In this document: piece by piece, positions 49,791-62,037 of the stretch
Layout: the number at the start of each line of letters is the position of its first letter
Position numbering within the stretch: the first letter of the stretch is position 1
NCBI RefSeq assembly: GCF_000703085.1
Contig: NZ_JNLL01000001.1
Location: forward strand, 1,798,001-1,862,000
Direction of reading: 5' to 3'
DNA from: Persephonella sp. KM09-Lau-8
GTDB taxonomy: Bacteria > Aquificota > Aquificia > Aquificales > Hydrogenothermaceae
Length of the DNA stretch: 64,000 bases
Position numbers and translations under genes: made by a program
Notes under the pieces: generated by a model
Told to the model about the DNA's origin: nothing
Seen by the model: only the letters and a program-made list of their open reading frames with translations
The model's database searches: none

Positions 49791-50162
49791 ATGAGTAAGA
49801 AATTTTCCTTTTATGGCGAAAAGGTTTTTAGGATTTTTATACTAGAAGAAGTTGAAAAGGAAATTGAGAGTTTAAGAGATATTAAAGGACAGAAGAAAAT
49901 ATTGAATACGTTAGATAGACTTCTTGAGAGAATACCTAATAACCCTGAGCAGTGGAAAAGGATAGAAAATTGTAAAACAGCTTATGAATTGAAGCCAAAA
50001 CCTTACAGATTAGGTTGTTTCTTTGATGGTGGTAGAGATATTTTAGTTGTGCATGTTTGGAAAGTGCAAAGTAAAAAGAGTAAAACGAAACAACAAGATA
50101 TTAAGAAAACATGTAAAAAAATTGAGGAGCTAAGAGATGAGTTTAAGAGATTTACGAGATAA
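49791..50162 (+). CDS. HigB/RelE-type toxin of a three-gene TAC module
   Basis: A 123-residue basic protein. The core FILEEVEKEIESLRDIKGQK, ERIPNNPEQWKRIENCKTAYELKPKPYRLGCFFDGG and ILVVHVWKVQSKKSK follows the fold pattern of Gp49/HigB toxins, which cut mRNA in the ribosome. It precedes the antitoxin gene, the inverted order typical of HigBA, and overlaps it by 26 bases. There is no obvious Shine-Dalgarno sequence before ATG 49791, suggesting low or coupled translation. Family assignment is from sequence pattern and context. Confidence 0.7.
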   Translation: MSKKFSFYGEKVFRIFILEEVEKEIESLRDIKGQKKILNTLDRLLERIPNNPEQWKRIENCKTAYELKPKPYRLGCFFDGGRDILVVHVWKVQSKKSKTKQQDIKKTCKKIEELRDEFKRFTR

Positions 50163-50493
50163 ATTTAAATACGATGAAGAATATATACATTGTGGTCTAA
50201 TGCTTGATTTATCTTACTACCTTAAACAACTTATGCTTGAAAAAGGACTTAATAAAAAACAGCTTGCAGAAAGAATGGGAGTATCTCCTGCATACATTAC
50301 CAAAATTTTCAGCGGACAAAACATATCCCTTAAAACTGTAGCCAAAATTTTGTCGGCCTTGGAGGTTGATGCTGGCATAAAAATAATTGATAGGGAAAAA
50401 GAAGAATACAAAGTAGCACCTAATAAAGAACTTTTAAAACTGGTTAAAAAAGGAAAAGAAGATGAAAGCAAAGCTTTCTCCATTGCAGCTTAA
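50137..50493 (+). CDS. HigA-type XRE antitoxin with C-terminal extension
   Basis: A 118-residue DNA-binding antitoxin. Residues about 28-85 form an XRE helix-turn-helix (KQLAERMGVSPAYITKIFSG, QNISLKTVAKILSALEVD). The C-terminal tail (YKVAPNKELLKLVKKGKEDE and on) is the position where TAC antitoxins carry a chaperone-addiction segment. It overlaps the toxin gene by 26 bases and the SecB-like gene by 32 bases. Confidence 0.85.
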   Translation: MSLRDLRDKFKYDEEYIHCGLMLDLSYYLKQLMLEKGLNKKQLAERMGVSPAYITKIFSGQNISLKTVAKILSALEVDAGIKIIDREKEEYKVAPNKELLKLVKKGKEDESKAFSIAA

Positions 50494-54496: not shown

Positions 54497-55705
54497 ATGA
54501 AAATAGCTGTTGTCTTTGGAACCAGACCTGAAGCTATAAAATTAGCCCCAGTTATTAAGCAGTTAAGAGAAAAATTTGAGACCATAGTTATAAATTCTGG
54601 ACAGCACCACAATCTGGTTCAGCAGATAATTGATTTTTTTCATATTGAAGTGGATTATGATTTAAGGGCATATGTATCAAAGGATAGAACACTTCCTCAA
54701 TTGTCTTCAATGTTAATAGAAAATTTGGATAGAGTTTATTCAGAAATTTCTCCAGATCTTGTTATTGTTCAGGGAGATACAATGACAACTTTTACCGGAG
54801 CATTTGTTGGTTTTTTACATAAAAAACCTGTTGCCCATGTGGAAGCAGGCCTGAGAAGTTTTAGTAAATTTGCACCTTTTCCAGAAGAATTAATGAGAGA
54901 GATGGTAGGGAGGCTGGCTGATTTGCATTTTCCTCCAACTGTTGTGGATAAAGAGAATCTTTTAAATGAAAATATAAGACCAGACAGAATTTTTCTTGTT
55001 GGTAATACGGTAGTTGATGCCCTCAAACTTGGTAATTCAATATTAGATGAAAATCAAGTATTTCAAGAACTTAAAGAGTATGGAATTACTCCAGATATAC
55101 TTAAAGATAGAAAAATAGTTCTTATTACTTCCCATAGACGGGAGAATATAGGGGAGCCACTTGTTAGAATCTGCCAGAGTATTAAACATTTAGCACAAGA
55201 ATATCCAGATTTTGTATTTATCTGGTCTATGCATCCAAACCCTGAGGTTAAGGAAATAGTTTCTAATTATATGCAAACAAAACCCGATAATATATATATA
55301 ACCAAACCGGTTTCTTATCCTACTATGATTTATTTACTTAATCATGCATTTTTGGTGCTTACAGATAGTGGGGGACTGCAGGAAGAAAGTGCCAGTATTG
55401 GCGTTCCGGTGTTGGTTCTAAGAACTGTTACAGAAAGATCAGTTGTGATAGATGCTGGAGCAGGTTTTTTAGTAGATAGCGATAGAAACAAGATTGAATA
55501 TTACTTTAATAAACTTGTTCAGGACAAAGAATTTTATAAAGAAGTTTCAGATAGAGGAGAACATCTTTTTGGAGATGGGACAGCATCCATAAGAATACAG
55601 AAATTACTTGAAAATAATGAAGTTCAAAAATTTATAAAGGATTATCCATTAACAGAGAAAATGAATTTAGAACATATTAAAAAGGAGGGTATAGAGATAT
55701 TATGA
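54497..55705 (+). CDS. wecB: UDP-N-acetylglucosamine 2-epimerase
   Basis: A 402-residue cytosolic enzyme converting UDP-GlcNAc to UDP-ManNAc. Motifs: FGTRPEAIKLAPV near the start, NSGQHHNL, VQGDTMTTFTGA, HVEAGLRS and DSGGLQEESASIG. It heads the cluster and overlaps the next gene by 4 bases. Its presence suggests the polymer contains ManNAc or needs UDP-ManNAc. Confidence 0.93.
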   Translation: MKIAVVFGTRPEAIKLAPVIKQLREKFETIVINSGQHHNLVQQIIDFFHIEVDYDLRAYVSKDRTLPQLSSMLIENLDRVYSEISPDLVIVQGDTMTTFTGAFVGFLHKKPVAHVEAGLRSFSKFAPFPEELMREMVGRLADLHFPPTVVDKENLLNENIRPDRIFLVGNTVVDALKLGNSILDENQVFQELKEYGITPDILKDRKIVLITSHRRENIGEPLVRICQSIKHLAQEYPDFVFIWSMHPNPEVKEIVSNYMQTKPDNIYITKPVSYPTMIYLLNHAFLVLTDSGGLQEESASIGVPVLVLRTVTERSVVIDAGAGFLVDSDRNKIEYYFNKLVQDKEFYKEVSDRGEHLFGDGTASIRIQKLLENNEVQKFIKDYPLTEKMNLEHIKKEGIEIL

Positions 55706-56475
55706 AAAAGGCAGGTATTTCTATTGCTTTGATTGGTGCTATAGCTGTTAATTCATATGCTCTTTCTCCAAAAAGATTTGAAGTTCAGTATAACTATGAA
55801 AGATTAGATCCATATTCAGATTATGGAGAGTGGAACAGTATTGATATGATGCTTTATGGAAAAGAAGGTGAAGACTGGACACCATTTGTTGGCGGGAGCA
55901 TTATAGATAGAAAAATAGAAGGTAGTGCTGCTTTAGGAGTTTTAGGCACCTACAAAGACTGGACAGACTGGCTTTATACATACTCTTCAATATCTTTTGG
56001 AACAAATTCTGAGTATTTACCTAAGTATAGACTTGACCATGAATTTAATTTTAAGCTGGGTCCCCAGCAGCAGTATGTATTAACAGCTGCAGGAACATAT
56101 ATAAAATACTGGGATGTTCATAAAGATATCGTTCTTTCTCTTGGAGGAACTGTTTATTATGGAAAATTTGTAGGAACCTTAAGATATTTCCATAATATAA
56201 GCAAACCTGGTAATGTCCGTTCATCTTCATATTTAATAAGTCTTGAATACGGTGCAGAAAAAGATCAGTGGACATATCTAAATTTATCCTGGGGTAAACA
56301 GGCTTATATGGCTACAAATCTCAGTAATCCGGAAGAGGTGAGAGAAAATTCAACTATCGTTGGAATAGGACACAGACACTGGCTAAGTAATACATTTGGG
56401 GTTATAGGTGAGCTTGAGTATATGAGACTTGAGAACTCTTACAACAAATATAGAATATCTGGGGAGTTTTTATAG
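55702..56475 (+). CDS. YaiO-like outer-membrane beta-barrel
   Basis: A 257-residue exported protein. Signal peptide MKKAGISIALIGAIAVNSYA, then alternating aromatic strands (e.g. FEVQYNYERLDPYSD, WLYTYSSISFG, LEYMRLENSYNKYRISGEFL) resembling YaiO-family barrels, ending in a strand with terminal FL. Probably the outer-membrane pore or accessory for the polysaccharide. Overlaps wecB by 4 bases. Confidence 0.7.
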   Translation: MKKAGISIALIGAIAVNSYALSPKRFEVQYNYERLDPYSDYGEWNSIDMMLYGKEGEDWTPFVGGSIIDRKIEGSAALGVLGTYKDWTDWLYTYSSISFGTNSEYLPKYRLDHEFNFKLGPQQQYVLTAAGTYIKYWDVHKDIVLSLGGTVYYGKFVGTLRYFHNISKPGNVRSSSYLISLEYGAEKDQWTYLNLSWGKQAYMATNLSNPEEVRENSTIVGIGHRHWLSNTFGVIGELEYMRLENSYNKYRISGEFL

Positions 56476-56487
56476 ATTTTTAGAGCT

Positions 56488-57270
56488 ATGCGAAAGAAAG
56501 ATAATCTTAAAGAAAAAATCCTTCCACACAGGGCATACAGGATAATAAAACTTGATACATTTGAGCTTATAGGAAGTTTTATAGCTATTTTCCTGATTTT
56601 TATCGCTGTGTTTTCATTTTTTCCTCTTATTCTGGAAAAGGGCATAGAGTTTTGCAAAGAGTTTTTAGATACACTTTATGTGTCTGCTGTATTTGAGATA
56701 AACCACAGGAATTTTCTAATATTTGATGTTCCATATATAGAGACTTACGGAAAATATCCAACAAAAAATTTTGCGATACTGACATTAATTGTCTCTTTTA
56801 TACTTGCAATCGCTTTATATAAAAATAAGTATCTGAAAAATATATCTATGACCCTTTTTGTTCTTGTATTTATAAATATTCTTTCTGCTTTATACTTTAT
56901 ATTCTTTTCCCAATATTTCCCATATAGTTTATCTAGTTTTTCCTATTTATTTATCAGCACTTCTGTAATAAATTGGGCGGTGTTGATGTTTATTTTTGGT
57001 TTACTAATTGCTCCAATTCCTGCAAATTTTTTTCTGAAAATAATCGTTTATATATTGATAAGTCTATCTGTAGTTGTTCTGGGATTTCTAAGATATCTGT
57101 TAATAATTGTGGTTCTAAAAGAATATACATACATTTTTATGCCAGTGTTGTTTTTAGGTTTTGGCATAATTGTTGATTATGTATATGCTGTAATGCTTTA
57201 TGGATTTTTTGTAAGTTTTGTAACAGCATCCTTACTTAAAAAGGTAGATGAGTGGCGATGGGTGGAATAA
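56488..57270 (+). CDS. Polytopic membrane protein of the exopolysaccharide cluster
   Basis: A 260-residue protein with about six membrane helices (first at 28-48; others at 96-112, 118-140, 150-172, 178-205 and 212-250). I do not recognise the family. It overlaps the glycosyltransferase start by 19 bases, so the two are probably made together and may form the synthase complex. Confidence 0.7.
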   Translation: MRKKDNLKEKILPHRAYRIIKLDTFELIGSFIAIFLIFIAVFSFFPLILEKGIEFCKEFLDTLYVSAVFEINHRNFLIFDVPYIETYGKYPTKNFAILTLIVSFILAIALYKNKYLKNISMTLFVLVFINILSALYFIFFSQYFPYSLSSFSYLFISTSVINWAVLMFIFGLLIAPIPANFFLKIIVYILISLSVVVLGFLRYLLIIVVLKEYTYIFMPVLFLGFGIIVDYVYAVMLYGFFVSFVTASLLKKVDEWRWVE

Positions 57271-58532
57271 TTATTTTGATACTTAAAGGATATATTTTGA
57301 CTGTTGCTGGCCTATGTGCCCTGTATGCTATAAGACACTTGATATTTGCCTATGACAGACTTCTTGGAAAACAGAGAATATTTTATGGAGATATTATAGA
57401 TGATGAATTGCCATCTGTATCTGTTCTGGTTCCAATGCATAATGAAGAGAAGGTTGCTCCAAACATACTAAAACTTCTTGTTGAAGCAGATTATCCCAGG
57501 GATAGATATGAGATTATTCCTATAAATGACCATTCTGAAGATAAAACAAAAGAGATTATTGATGAGTTTGCACAGAAGTATGATTTTATTCATCCATTGC
57601 ACAGATATAGTGGTAAAAGAGGAAAACCAGCCGGTTTAAATGATGCTTTAAAAATGGCAAAAGGAGAAATAGTTCTCATATTTGATGCAGATTATTTACC
57701 TCCAAAAGGAATAATTAAGGAATTAGCAGTTAATTTTAAAGACCCTATTGTTGGTGCAGTTATGGGAAGAGTTATTCCCATTAATGCAGATAAAAATCTT
57801 CTTACAAAACTACTTGACCTTGAAAGATGCGGTGGATATCAGGTTGACCAGCAGGCAAGATATAACCTGAATCTAATACCCCAGTATGGTGGCACAGTAG
57901 GAGGATTTAGAAAAGATATTGTTCTGGAAACAGGGGGTTTTGATGAAAATGTTCTTGCAGAGGATACAGAACTTACTTACAGGATGTATACATCTGGCTA
58001 TAAGGTTGTATATGCCAATAGAGCTGAGTGCTGGGAGGAGGCTCCTGAGGACTGGGAAGTAAGAGCCAGACAGGTCAAGAGATGGTCACGGGGACATAAT
58101 CAGGTAATGTTTAAATACTTTTTCAAAGTTCTTAAATCAAAATATCTTACATTTTTCCAGAAATTTGATGGAATATTGCTTTTAATGGTTTATCTAATAC
58201 CTGCTTTATTGCTACTTGGCTGGTTAGATCTTCTAATCCTGTTCTTCCTTGGAGATATAAATATAATTGCTCCTGTATTTGTTATGCTGGTTCTTCTTTT
58301 GTTTTCTGGCTTTGGGAATTTTGCTCCGTTTTATGAAATTGCCACAGGAACAATGATTGATGGTCTTACAAAGAGAGTCAGATTATTACCATTTCTGATG
58401 TTCAACTTTGTTTTTAATGGAGTTTATATAACTTTAGGTTTCTGGCAGGCATTTATGGATTTTGTAAAAAGAAATAGAGAAATTCACTGGGATAAAACGG
58501 AAAGATTTAGGGAAGAAGAGGTAGTAGAGTGA
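57252..58532 (+). CDS. Processive family 2 glycosyltransferase
   Basis: A 426-residue membrane polysaccharide synthase. One N-terminal helix, then a GT-A domain with VSVLVPMHNEEKVAP, DHSEDKT, a DxD at FDADY (about 144-146), the base AEDTELTYRM, and QVKRW at about 274-278, the QxxRW motif of processive synthases (cellulose, PNAG, hyaluronan). Several C-terminal helices follow. GTG 57252 is chosen because AAGG lies 7 bases upstream; ATG 57258 is an alternative. Confidence 0.88.
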   Translation: MAMGGIIILILKGYILTVAGLCALYAIRHLIFAYDRLLGKQRIFYGDIIDDELPSVSVLVPMHNEEKVAPNILKLLVEADYPRDRYEIIPINDHSEDKTKEIIDEFAQKYDFIHPLHRYSGKRGKPAGLNDALKMAKGEIVLIFDADYLPPKGIIKELAVNFKDPIVGAVMGRVIPINADKNLLTKLLDLERCGGYQVDQQARYNLNLIPQYGGTVGGFRKDIVLETGGFDENVLAEDTELTYRMYTSGYKVVYANRAECWEEAPEDWEVRARQVKRWSRGHNQVMFKYFFKVLKSKYLTFFQKFDGILLLMVYLIPALLLLGWLDLLILFFLGDINIIAPVFVMLVLLLFSGFGNFAPFYEIATGTMIDGLTKRVRLLPFLMFNFVFNGVYITLGFWQAFMDFVKRNREIHWDKTERFREEEVVE

Positions 58533-59422
58533 TAGAGGTTGTCTTTTTTATGATTTTCTTTCTGTTTGTGTTCCCTTTTGCCTTAAGTTATGTGCTTGCA
58601 TCTGGAAAAGAACGCCTTAATATAGATCTCAACTATACAAAGAATCCCAGATATTTTGCTGTATCTTTTAGAAAAAAGATAACAAGAGCATTAACTCTTG
58701 CCTCAGCTATAAGCAAAGATTCAAGAGTTGAGGTTCAGTTATCAAAAAAGGAATATATCAAATATGGAAAATTTAATAATCTCACATTTAGCCTTTTCCC
58801 GAACCATATCTACGTAATAACCAATAGAAGTTTCACAATCAAAAAAGGAACAGTTATAAAAAAAGAGATATATGCCCTTTACGATTTAATAATAGAGGAT
58901 GATTGCTTTTTAAGAGCAGTGGCCTGTGATGGAAACTGTATAATACACAATGATGTAATAATCGTTAGATGGGTAGATGCCATCAAAAGTCTTAAGGTAG
59001 GATCAGGATGTTCTCTTGGTGTGGTTGGTTCATCTAAAGGAAATTTACATCTTGATAAGAATAATATATTTACCAGATTATACGGATATCCTGTTACAAC
59101 CTATGGGATTAAAGATAAAAAATATGATGAATTTTCTATAGTAATTGAAAAGACTTTGAGAGAAAATCCTGTTGAATTAGAAGGCACAGACTCCAAGCCT
59201 GTTTATGTAAAAGGAGATATATTTTCCGACGAAAATATAAAACTAAAAAATGTAATAGTAGAGGGAACAATATTCTCTTTTAAAAATATATATCTTGAAA
59301 ATGTGGTTGTGGGTTCTCCTGATAGAAAAGTGTCTGTCATTGGAGAAAAGGTAACCCTTGGAAAAAATGTAAAGATATACGGGTATGTGCAGGCAAATAC
59401 TAAATATGGGAAGATAGCGTAA
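58529..59422 (+). CDS. Membrane-anchored bactofilin/solenoid-like protein
   Basis: A 297-residue protein beginning with a hydrophobic anchor (residues 4-24), followed by repeated short strands. The C-terminal third (VYVKGDIFSDENIKLKNVIV, EGTIFSFKNIYLEN and KVTLGKNVKIYGYV) reads like a parallel beta-solenoid of the polymer-forming/bactofilin kind. It may scaffold the synthase. GTG start overlaps the glycosyltransferase stop (GTGA). Confidence 0.6.
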   Translation: MIEVVFFMIFFLFVFPFALSYVLASGKERLNIDLNYTKNPRYFAVSFRKKITRALTLASAISKDSRVEVQLSKKEYIKYGKFNNLTFSLFPNHIYVITNRSFTIKKGTVIKKEIYALYDLIIEDDCFLRAVACDGNCIIHNDVIIVRWVDAIKSLKVGSGCSLGVVGSSKGNLHLDKNNIFTRLYGYPVTTYGIKDKKYDEFSIVIEKTLRENPVELEGTDSKPVYVKGDIFSDENIKLKNVIVEGTIFSFKNIYLENVVVGSPDRKVSVIGEKVTLGKNVKIYGYVQANTKYGKIA

Positions 59423-59423
59423 A

Positions 59424-61190
59424 ATGAAAAGAATAAGCGTGTTGTTGGGGATTATCTTATTTTTTTCTGTAACTTTCGCACAGGAATTTAGAGTCTTGAT
59501 TGTTTACAGTCCTAAGCAGATATCTGAGAAGAAATATGCAATAAATGCCCTTGAAAGTGTTCTTCAAGAAGAAGGTATCCTTTTTTCTAAAATGAGTGCT
59601 AATTCCCTTCTGACATATTATCCAGAAAAGATTAAAAAAATATTTCCTGTAATAGTTTTTCCTGATGGGGTGGCTCAGCAGTTACCAGATGATATTAGAT
59701 ACTGGAGTGAGGAGTATGTAAATAGTGGAGGACATATTTTTGTTATTTATGATGCAGGAGTTAAAGATATACATGGACACTATAGAAATAGACCCCTCTT
59801 TGATAGTTTAGTTGGTGTAAATTATTGTTTATATCCTGAAGAAGAAGAGAAAACATATACACTTGGCTATTTCAAGTTAAATGAATTTTATCTAAAAGAT
59901 ATAGATATTCCACCAGGTAAAACCATAGATAACACCATAAGTGGATACAAATACGGAAAGCTAAAATATCCTGTAGCTCTTACCAGACAAATTGATAGGA
60001 GAATTGAAAAAGTTGCCTACGTATATAACTCACAATTTCAGGGAATAGGAGCCTCATTAAAAAGATATGGAGAAGGCTCAGCTTTTTTTGTAAATCTTCC
60101 CCTTTGTCATCTAAAAGCCGAAAGTGATGATCTGCTCCTTAGAGCATTTATAAGATTTTATTTATTTAGGATTGTTCATTTACCCCATTTGTTAAATGTC
60201 CCCTATGGAAAAGGTGGTCTTATTATAAACTGGCATATTGATTCATATCTGGACTGGAAATCTATTCCTATGATGATAAAAAAAGGATATTTAAAAAAAA
60301 CAATAATATACTCAAATCACATAACTGCTGGTCCATTTTTGCGAAAACCTGGAGATGGTAAAGGATTTGATGCCTGTGGCAGAGGAAAAAGATTTGCTTT
60401 GATGTTGACTAAATATGGAATTACAGGTTCCCATGGTGGTTGGGCACATAACTGGTTTGCAAGGAATATACTTACAGGTAAGTTTGGATATGAAGAGATA
60501 AAAAAATATATAAAGAAGAATAATGAGTGTCTCCAAAAAATAACCCATCAAAAAATAGAAGAATATTCAGCTCCAAACGGAGTTCATCCTCAGCCCATAA
60601 TGACAAAGGCATTGGAAGAACTTGGAATGAAATGCTATTACTATACTGGTGACTCTGGTTCTGCTCCAAACAGAACTTTTTATAATAAAGAGATGGTTTC
60701 AGATAAAGTCTGGGCATTTCCTGTGACACCGCTGGGAGATGTTGCTTCTTTTTATGAGATGGCTGTTAAAGGCTATTCTTCCAAAAAAGTAGAAAAATGG
60801 CTCAAGGCAATGGTTGATTTTGTCATAGATAGGAAAACGATAAGACTTATATATTCGCACCCTTATGATATACCCCACTACCCGAAAGCAATCCTAAGAT
60901 TTATTAATTATGCAGAGAAAAAATATAAGCAGGGAAAACTGATAGTAAAACCTATGCTTTATTTTGAGAATTATTTAGAAAGATTTGTAAAAACCCAGTT
61001 TTCCTTTGAAACAAAAGGCAAAAAATTTATTGTTGATGCGTATAATTCTAAAGGCCTGAAAGGAATTCCAATTGCTATTCCAAAAAGAATGTGTTCTGGG
61101 AAATTGTCTAATGTTCAAGACAAACACTTTTATTATATAATAATAACTAAAAACACAAAAAATTTTCATTATGAGTGTAGATTGCGATAA
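59424..61190 (+). CDS. Exported two-domain polysaccharide-deacetylase-like protein
   Basis: A 588-residue periplasmic protein with signal peptide MKRISVLLGIILFFSVTFAQ. Residues 22-260 form a Rossmann/GATase-like domain (FRVLIVYSPKQISEK, GGHIFVIYDAG). The C-terminal domain starts at GLIINWHIDSYLDW, has SHGGWAHNW, APNGVHPQP and IYSHPYD, consistent with the NodB fold (metal Asp and HxxxH). It probably deacetylates the nascent polymer, like PgaB or PelA in other systems. Starts 1 base after the solenoid gene. Confidence 0.72.
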   Translation: MKRISVLLGIILFFSVTFAQEFRVLIVYSPKQISEKKYAINALESVLQEEGILFSKMSANSLLTYYPEKIKKIFPVIVFPDGVAQQLPDDIRYWSEEYVNSGGHIFVIYDAGVKDIHGHYRNRPLFDSLVGVNYCLYPEEEEKTYTLGYFKLNEFYLKDIDIPPGKTIDNTISGYKYGKLKYPVALTRQIDRRIEKVAYVYNSQFQGIGASLKRYGEGSAFFVNLPLCHLKAESDDLLLRAFIRFYLFRIVHLPHLLNVPYGKGGLIINWHIDSYLDWKSIPMMIKKGYLKKTIIYSNHITAGPFLRKPGDGKGFDACGRGKRFALMLTKYGITGSHGGWAHNWFARNILTGKFGYEEIKKYIKKNNECLQKITHQKIEEYSAPNGVHPQPIMTKALEELGMKCYYYTGDSGSAPNRTFYNKEMVSDKVWAFPVTPLGDVASFYEMAVKGYSSKKVEKWLKAMVDFVIDRKTIRLIYSHPYDIPHYPKAILRFINYAEKKYKQGKLIVKPMLYFENYLERFVKTQFSFETKGKKFIVDAYNSKGLKGIPIAIPKRMCSGKLSNVQDKHFYYIIITKNTKNFHYECRLR

Positions 61191-62037
61191 TCTAAATCCC
61201 CCATTGAATATATGGAGATATTTTTCTAACGTAAAAAATGAGAATTATGTAATTCCTTACATAAGCAACCTTATAGCAATATATTTACTTCTTGAAGATA
61301 GAATTCAACTTAGTGAAGTTGAAAAATATATCTACTGGTATCTTGACAGAGTTAATATCAGGGATTGTAATGGAATCTCAGGGACTGTTTACGATTTGGA
61401 AATTACCCTTGATGGTAATGAAAAGCCTCTTAATATATACGATTCTGCTGATGGGTATGCAGGAACATTTCTTACATTGACAAATCTATATTGCAGGAAA
61501 AAAAGAGATTTCTCTATTTTCCAAAAAAATATTGATAAATACTTACATATGGCATATTTAATAGTGCATCTTAGGGGTGAAAATGGTCTCACAATATCAG
61601 ATCCAAAACATCCTGAGAATTATTTAATGAATAATCTTGAGGCTTATGGCGGGTTATTATCAGCATGTTATGCTTTAGAAAAAATATCCCATCCAGATTT
61701 TTCCTATTATAAAGAACATGCAATATCTTTTAATGAGAGTATATGGTGTAATTTTTATGATGTATCAACCGGCTATTTTTACTGGGCAATAGAGGATGGA
61801 AAGAAATACCCTATTAATCCAGATAAAGTTTATCCCGATGTATATTCCCAGATTTTCCCTATAGCTTATGGCCTCGTTTATAAGAAAACCCAGATACGCC
61901 AAAATCTGATAAATCTTATCTCTGAAAAACTAAATCCTCTAAAAATACCAAAAGAACAGTATTTTATGTATAGGTCTATGCTTCCACTTGAGCAGATTTT
62001 TGCTTATATTTCCCAAAAATATCTCCCTGAGTTATAA
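61171..62037 (+). CDS. Alpha/alpha-barrel glycosidase-like protein
   Basis: A 288-residue protein without a signal peptide. Helical repeats with YDSADGYAGTFLTLTNLY, NNLEAYGGLLSACYALEK and YPINPDKVYPDVYSQIFPIA resemble (alpha/alpha)6-toroid glycosidases such as GH8 enzymes found in cellulose clusters; catalytic residues were not assigned. It overlaps the deacetylase gene by 20 bases and the convergent bioB by 62. Start uncertain because no ribosome-binding site is evident. Confidence 0.6.
   Translation: MSVDCDNLNPPLNIWRYFSNVKNENYVIPYISNLIAIYLLLEDRIQLSEVEKYIYWYLDRVNIRDCNGISGTVYDLEITLDGNEKPLNIYDSADGYAGTFLTLTNLYCRKKRDFSIFQKNIDKYLHMAYLIVHLRGENGLTISDPKHPENYLMNNLEAYGGLLSACYALEKISHPDFSYYKEHAISFNESIWCNFYDVSTGYFYWAIEDGKKYPINPDKVYPDVYSQIFPIAYGLVYKKTQIRQNLINLISEKLNPLKIPKEQYFMYRSMLPLEQIFAYISQKYLPEL

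Follow-up and report, generated by a model that had tools for sequence, protein, structure and literature searches.

The window analysed here, a stretch of 64,000 nucleotides (G000:C1:1798001-1862000), comes from a Persephonella host (Aquificota), and between positions 54497 and 62037 it holds a block of seven ORFs on the same strand (Table 1). An earlier note had described this block as a tightly packed seven-gene set, and we find all ORFs where it placed them, with the list of parts that it gave; four of the six junctions overlap. The overlaps are of 4 bp (wecB/yaiO), 19 bp (p260/GT2), 4 bp (GT2/p297) and 20 bp (deacetylase/p288), and the two gaps are of 12 bp (yaiO/p260) and 1 bp (p297/deacetylase). 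The G+C content of the operon, 0.30-0.35, is the same as that of its flanks. In comparison with the close relative G001, all seven genes have a dN/dS of 0.03-0.10, indicating purifying selection.

Table 1. The seven genes of the operon, with positions in the window.
Feature	Position	Strand	Basis of assignment
wecB, non-hydrolysing UDP-GlcNAc 2-epimerase, 402 aa	54497..55705	+	TIGR00236
YaiO-family outer-membrane beta barrel without TPR region, 257 aa	55702..56475	+	TIGR04390, PF19413
p260, polytopic inner-membrane protein with about six predicted helices, 260 aa	56488..57270	+	no known family
GT2 processive glycosyltransferase (synthase), 426 aa, GTG start	57252..58532	+	PF13641
p297, N-terminal membrane helix and bactofilin-like beta solenoid, 297 aa	58529..59422	+	hhalign
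Exported two-domain protein with C-terminal CE4/NodB-like deacetylase domain, 588 aa	59424..61190	+	PF01522, sub-threshold
p288, predicted (alpha/alpha)6-barrel protein, probable glycosidase, 288 aa	61171..62037	+	model fold match

At its 3' end p288 overlaps with bioB, a convergent ORF (window 61976-62037), as it does in related Persephonella loci. Elsewhere in the window, at 49791-50493, two adjacent small genes resemble, from their translations, a toxin of the RelE/HigB type and its helix-turn-helix antitoxin.

In tblastn and whole-genome searches the deacetylase was found in 13 of 136 Aquificota genomes, which belong to two families and four genera of one order. The order wecB-yaiO-p260-GT2-p297-deacetylase-p288 is constant wherever the contig is complete, the exception being G005, which has no wecB in the operon and a different wecB elsewhere in the genome. 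The recurrence of the same order in two families, together with the purifying selection on its genes, indicates that the arrangement of the block is not due to chance. In Persephonella the operon lies between mbl and bioB. In sister species without the operon (G004 and G011) mbl directly adjoins bioB, and in G012 mbl is followed by the start of wecB and then by the end of the contig, so that the cassette is gained or lost as a whole. In the Aquificota assembly G100, four or more divergent operon copies are spread over short contigs (L045-L048), and one of them has a broken deacetylase; these copies represent either a strain mixture or real multiplication.

The genes are also kept together outside the Aquificota, as the earlier note had proposed to check by a neighbourhood search. 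In a protein search of plasmids, two full sets of all seven families were found on pMTS1 of Cupriavidus sp. P-10, in the order wecB, deacetylase, GT2, solenoid, barrel, YaiO, p260. The IncI1 conjugative plasmid pRHB18-C04_2 of Escherichia fergusonii carries solenoid, wecB, YaiO, p260-like, acyltransferase, barrel and GT2 genes, and the E. coli AH19B041 chromosome has the same six families and the acyltransferase. The Escherichia sets thus comprise six of the seven families, an acyltransferase taking the place of the deacetylase; of 5,426 E. coli genomes, three have the acyltransferase-barrel-GT2 part. The Escherichia operons (L051 2353-9206; L054 7669-14580) have regulators of fimbriae or adhesins and a gene of the DsbA family in their vicinity. 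Because Cupriavidus and Escherichia have the operon, it is not a speciality of hydrothermal vents, which is a correction to the earlier note.

The synthase is a GT2 enzyme (PF13641, 99 bits) with hydrophobic helices, and 11 operon synthases share invariant D, DAD, ED and QxxRW motifs. The Cupriavidus and Escherichia synthases are 46-47% and 42-43% identical to the window protein, versus 24% for PgaC. In a maximum-likelihood tree built without G125 and without NfrB (a long branch), the ten operon synthases form one clade with support of 99/99, while PgaC, BcsA, YaiP and the PssC group all fall outside it. The operon synthases are therefore a supported clade distinct from those of PgaC, BcsA, YaiP and Listeria PssC. 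The partner protein p260 has no Pfam or NCBIfam match, but it aligns with its counterparts in the Cupriavidus and Escherichia operons (hhalign probability 95.7%, E 8.6e-9).

One alternative is that the operon is a Pga-type system, making PNAG. The best NCBIfam match of the GT2 is the PgaC_IcaA model, and deacetylase-like and hydrolase-like proteins are encoded together with a small membrane partner and an outer-membrane barrel, as in PgaABCD. The match, however, scores 127 bits where the cut-off is 422, so that the GT2 is not assigned to the PgaC/IcaA equivalog, and no PgaC over cut-off was found in a scan of the host genome. Neither p260 against PgaD nor the deacetylase against PgaB gave a profile match, although the power of these comparisons, with a single sequence as template, is low. 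In addition, wecB, which is tied to the synthase here, is absent from pga, as is a bactofilin, and PgaA has TPRs, which the operon YaiO lacks. We consider it unlikely that the operon is of the Pga type.

WecB converts UDP-GlcNAc to UDP-ManNAc. The host genome has no wecB besides the operon copy (TIGR00236, 378 bits, cut-off 210). Among Aquificota, wecB is present in 12 of the 13 genomes with the synthase versus 13 of the 123 others (Fisher p ~1e-9, not corrected for kinship), and the one synthase genome that lacks it, G098, is 70% complete. The host also has two nucleotide-sugar dehydrogenases, which by motif presumably resemble UDP-GlcNAc/GalNAc and UDP-Glc enzymes; they might consume UDP-ManNAc and so constitute another use of it. 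No ManNAc transferase of the WecG/TagA type was found in the host genome. Outside the window, at about 1341610-1344330 of G000:C1 (L078 1465-3759), a gene of the UDP-glucose/GDP-mannose dehydrogenase family is split by a LAGLIDADG-containing intein (PF14890, PF14528), which sits at the GGHC motif holding the catalytic Cys. The linkage of wecB to the synthase points to UDP-ManNAc as the substrate of the operon, by the same logic that has been applied to NfrB in E. coli (PMC8669469), where a ManNAc polymer of NfrBA was inferred from the same wecB linkage (PMC8669469; PMC8669472). Of the ManNAc/GlcNAc polymer that the earlier note had put forward, a product of ManNAc type is thus best supported, by inference from genes rather than from chemistry.

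The YaiO protein belongs to its family well above threshold (TIGR04390, 141 bits, cut-off 32; PF19413, 94 bits), is the only YaiO encoded in the host genome, and is encoded alongside synthase genes in all lineages examined. None of the window proteins matched a TPR family in the scans, in agreement with the earlier observation that the set encodes no TPR scaffold. YaiO gave no profile match to NfrA, with a single-sequence template and low power, and we found no described role for the family in the literature.

In family scans p297 has only a weak hexapeptide signal and does not reach the gathering score of PF04519 (27.9 bits), for which the Cupriavidus counterpart scores 19.8 and that of E. 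fergusonii 29.4. Its homology to the proteobacterial counterparts is supported by profile alignment (hhalign probability 98.3%, E 1.6e-14). It had previously been read as a solenoid or bactofilin-like anchor; the bactofilin-like character and a membrane anchor, in the form of a single N-terminal hydrophobic helix, are borne out. In nearly all members this helix is followed by basic residues, so that by the positive-inside rule the solenoid should face the cytosol, which corrects the earlier picture. Bactofilins mark local envelope sites, and the presence of a bactofilin-like protein in all lineages examined would also be consistent with an operon that serves to decorate the cell surface or to build a short glycan (a capsule, an S-layer, a lipid-linked or a bactofilin-localised structure) rather than a free exopolysaccharide. 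However, genes for a ligase, a flippase and an ABC exporter are all missing from the cassette, trimming barrels and deacetylases usually accompany secreted polymers, and the GT2 has the motifs of a processive synthase, all of which makes such a role improbable. For a secreted exopolysaccharide, a scaffold role of p297 is plausible in view of the cytoskeletal belt that has been proposed to line up cellulose synthases in Gluconacetobacter (PMC7811197).

The 588-aa protein has an N-terminal hydrophobic segment and scores 19.6 bits against PF01522 (cut-off 23.1; Cupriavidus counterpart 22.6). In this family H271, H337, H342 and H479 are invariant, together with an AP-x-G loop, and D273 is kept in Aquificota but lost in Cupriavidus. 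CE4 enzymes have an Asp-His-His metal triad and a catalytic Asp; the two conserved His here are H337 and H342. The predicted structure has a pLDDT of 40. The description as a two-domain exported deacetylase stands as far as the CE4-like domain is concerned, but a canonical metal triad appears to be missing in part of the family and Escherichia has an acyltransferase instead. The presence of an acyltransferase and the absence of a deacetylase in Escherichia suggest that the systems may have in common an acyl modification of the chain.

The last protein of the operon, p288, has no Pfam or NCBIfam match. Its model (pLDDT 57), which was used for fold class only, gives VIA Z scores of 14-16 over 250-268 residues to many barrel glycosidases, with many GH families tied, and has no Foldseek match with E <0.001. 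Modelling thus assigns p288 the (alpha/alpha)6-barrel fold, and p288 is a probable glycosidase. D91, D94, N155 and E157 are conserved. The profile match to the proteobacterial counterparts is weak (E 0.0035, probability 9%), but it is collinear over 184 columns, the counterparts have the D-x-x-D, N-x-E and YP motifs in common, and the shared operon adds support to it. A signal-like N terminus is present in the second Aquificota family, in Cupriavidus and in Escherichia and absent in Persephonella. The earlier identification of an alpha/alpha-barrel protein is thus upheld, with the correction that the Persephonella copy has no signal peptide while its relatives have one. The signal peptide is lacking in all operon-bearing Persephonella examined, and the homology starts at the mature N terminus (window 61171-62037; L022 126-962; L019 8351-9160). 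Three further proposals for p288 were set aside. Kinship with GH8/BcsZ gave no profile match, with a single-sequence template and low power; YbcH is not a counterpart, being a DUF4434 protein; and a programmed frameshift fusing the deacetylase to p288 would have to reach the +1 frame, for which the conserved A-rich run gives no simple slip.

The earlier note had judged that the set matches none of Pel, Pga, Alg and Bcs, and we found no named operon that matches it. Neither of the two outcomes that the note had named as refuting its reading, a known named operon and a lack of joint conservation elsewhere, was thus encountered. A search of the literature on YaiO, on bactofilins with exopolysaccharide or NfrB, and on Persephonella exopolysaccharide gave no description of the set, which is weak evidence, the search having covered open-access papers. 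The operon works like the Nfr/NGR, Pga and Bcs systems but departs from each in the defining features that were tested. The NGR system of E. coli (NfrB-NfrA-YbcH with WecB) is similar in its processive GT2, its outer-membrane barrel, its dependence on or linkage with wecB and its proposed ManNAc polymer (PMC8669469, PMC8669472). It differs in that NfrB has a C-terminal MshEN c-di-GMP domain, which the 426-aa GT2 lacks, and its BLAST match to the GT2 is not significant (E 0.12), so that an NfrB orthologue is missing from the operon; NfrA is a large TPR and barrel protein with no detectable kinship to YaiO; and NGR has no deacetylase, solenoid or p260, nor is its YbcH equivalent to p288. The Bcs system likewise has a processive GT2, an alpha/alpha-barrel hydrolase (BcsZ) and an outer-membrane pore, but the operon has no BcsB, PilZ domain or BcsC, BcsA is 25% identical to the GT2, and the GT2 scores 69 bits against the CelA model, whose cut-off is 699. 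No PelF, the glycosyltransferase of Pel, is present in the operon, and none scored over cut-off in the scan of the host genome. The yaiS-yaiP-yaiX-yaiO locus of E. coli also brings together genes for a YaiO barrel, a GT2, a deacetylase and an acyltransferase. YaiP, however, is 28% identical over half its length, the locus has no wecB, solenoid, p260 or p288, and YaiS is, we assume, of the PIG-L type, a deacetylase differing from that of the operon. As a broad kind, synthase-dependent exopolysaccharide systems share with the operon the GT2 motifs and the outer-membrane barrel, while the periplasm-spanning TPR scaffold (as in PgaA, BcsC, AlgK and PelB) is absent from it.

The nearest characterised relative of the GT2 outside its clade, by BLAST score, is PssC of Listeria (158 bits, 31% identity; PgaC scores 95 bits), whose exopolysaccharide has ManNAc and galactose in a ratio of 2:1 and is degraded by PssZ, an alpha/alpha-barrel glycosidase (PMC7479077). 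Pss differs in belonging to a Gram-positive bacterium; the pss operon includes a BcsB-like protein, a DUF2334 protein and a diguanylate cyclase and has no YaiO, wecB, solenoid or p260, and PssC itself is in a separate supported clade. It is very doubtful that the operon makes a comparable heteropolymer, or one built from a different UDP-sugar in which ManNAc is a minor unit or a branch, given the single glycosyltransferase gene per operon in every lineage examined.

We therefore consider it probable that the operon encodes a synthase-dependent exopolysaccharide system using UDP-ManNAc. In the mechanism we propose, WecB would turn UDP-GlcNAc into UDP-ManNAc, which the membrane GT2 with its partner p260 would polymerise, passing the chain through the inner membrane. 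The bactofilin-like solenoid, on the cytosolic face, may tether the synthases or line them up. In the periplasm, the CE4-like protein would remove some of the acetyl groups, an acyltransferase being present instead in Escherichia, and the predicted alpha/alpha-barrel glycosidase would trim the chain. The YaiO barrel is a putative exit for the chain through the outer membrane.

More tentatively, and as a possibility that we would not yet rate as likely, this may be an undescribed exopolysaccharide system that extends across Aquificota, Beta- and Gammaproteobacteria, has been spread in part by plasmids, and produces a modified ManNAc polymer with its own bactofilin-like scaffold to position the synthase and a TPR-free YaiO for export. 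If true, a polysaccharide machine would include a cytoskeletal element among its own subunits. The conserved polytopic partner, the dedicated bactofilin-like scaffold and the YaiO barrel set the operon apart as an apparently distinct class of synthase-dependent exopolysaccharide system, and the YaiO family gains a function that can be tested. The secretion of ManNAc polymers by bacteria, proposed for E. coli NGR and indicated by the ManNAc in Listeria Pss, becomes testable with proteins from a thermophile. The E. fergusonii plasmid also shows that a conjugative plasmid of Escherichia can carry a whole surface-polymer operon.
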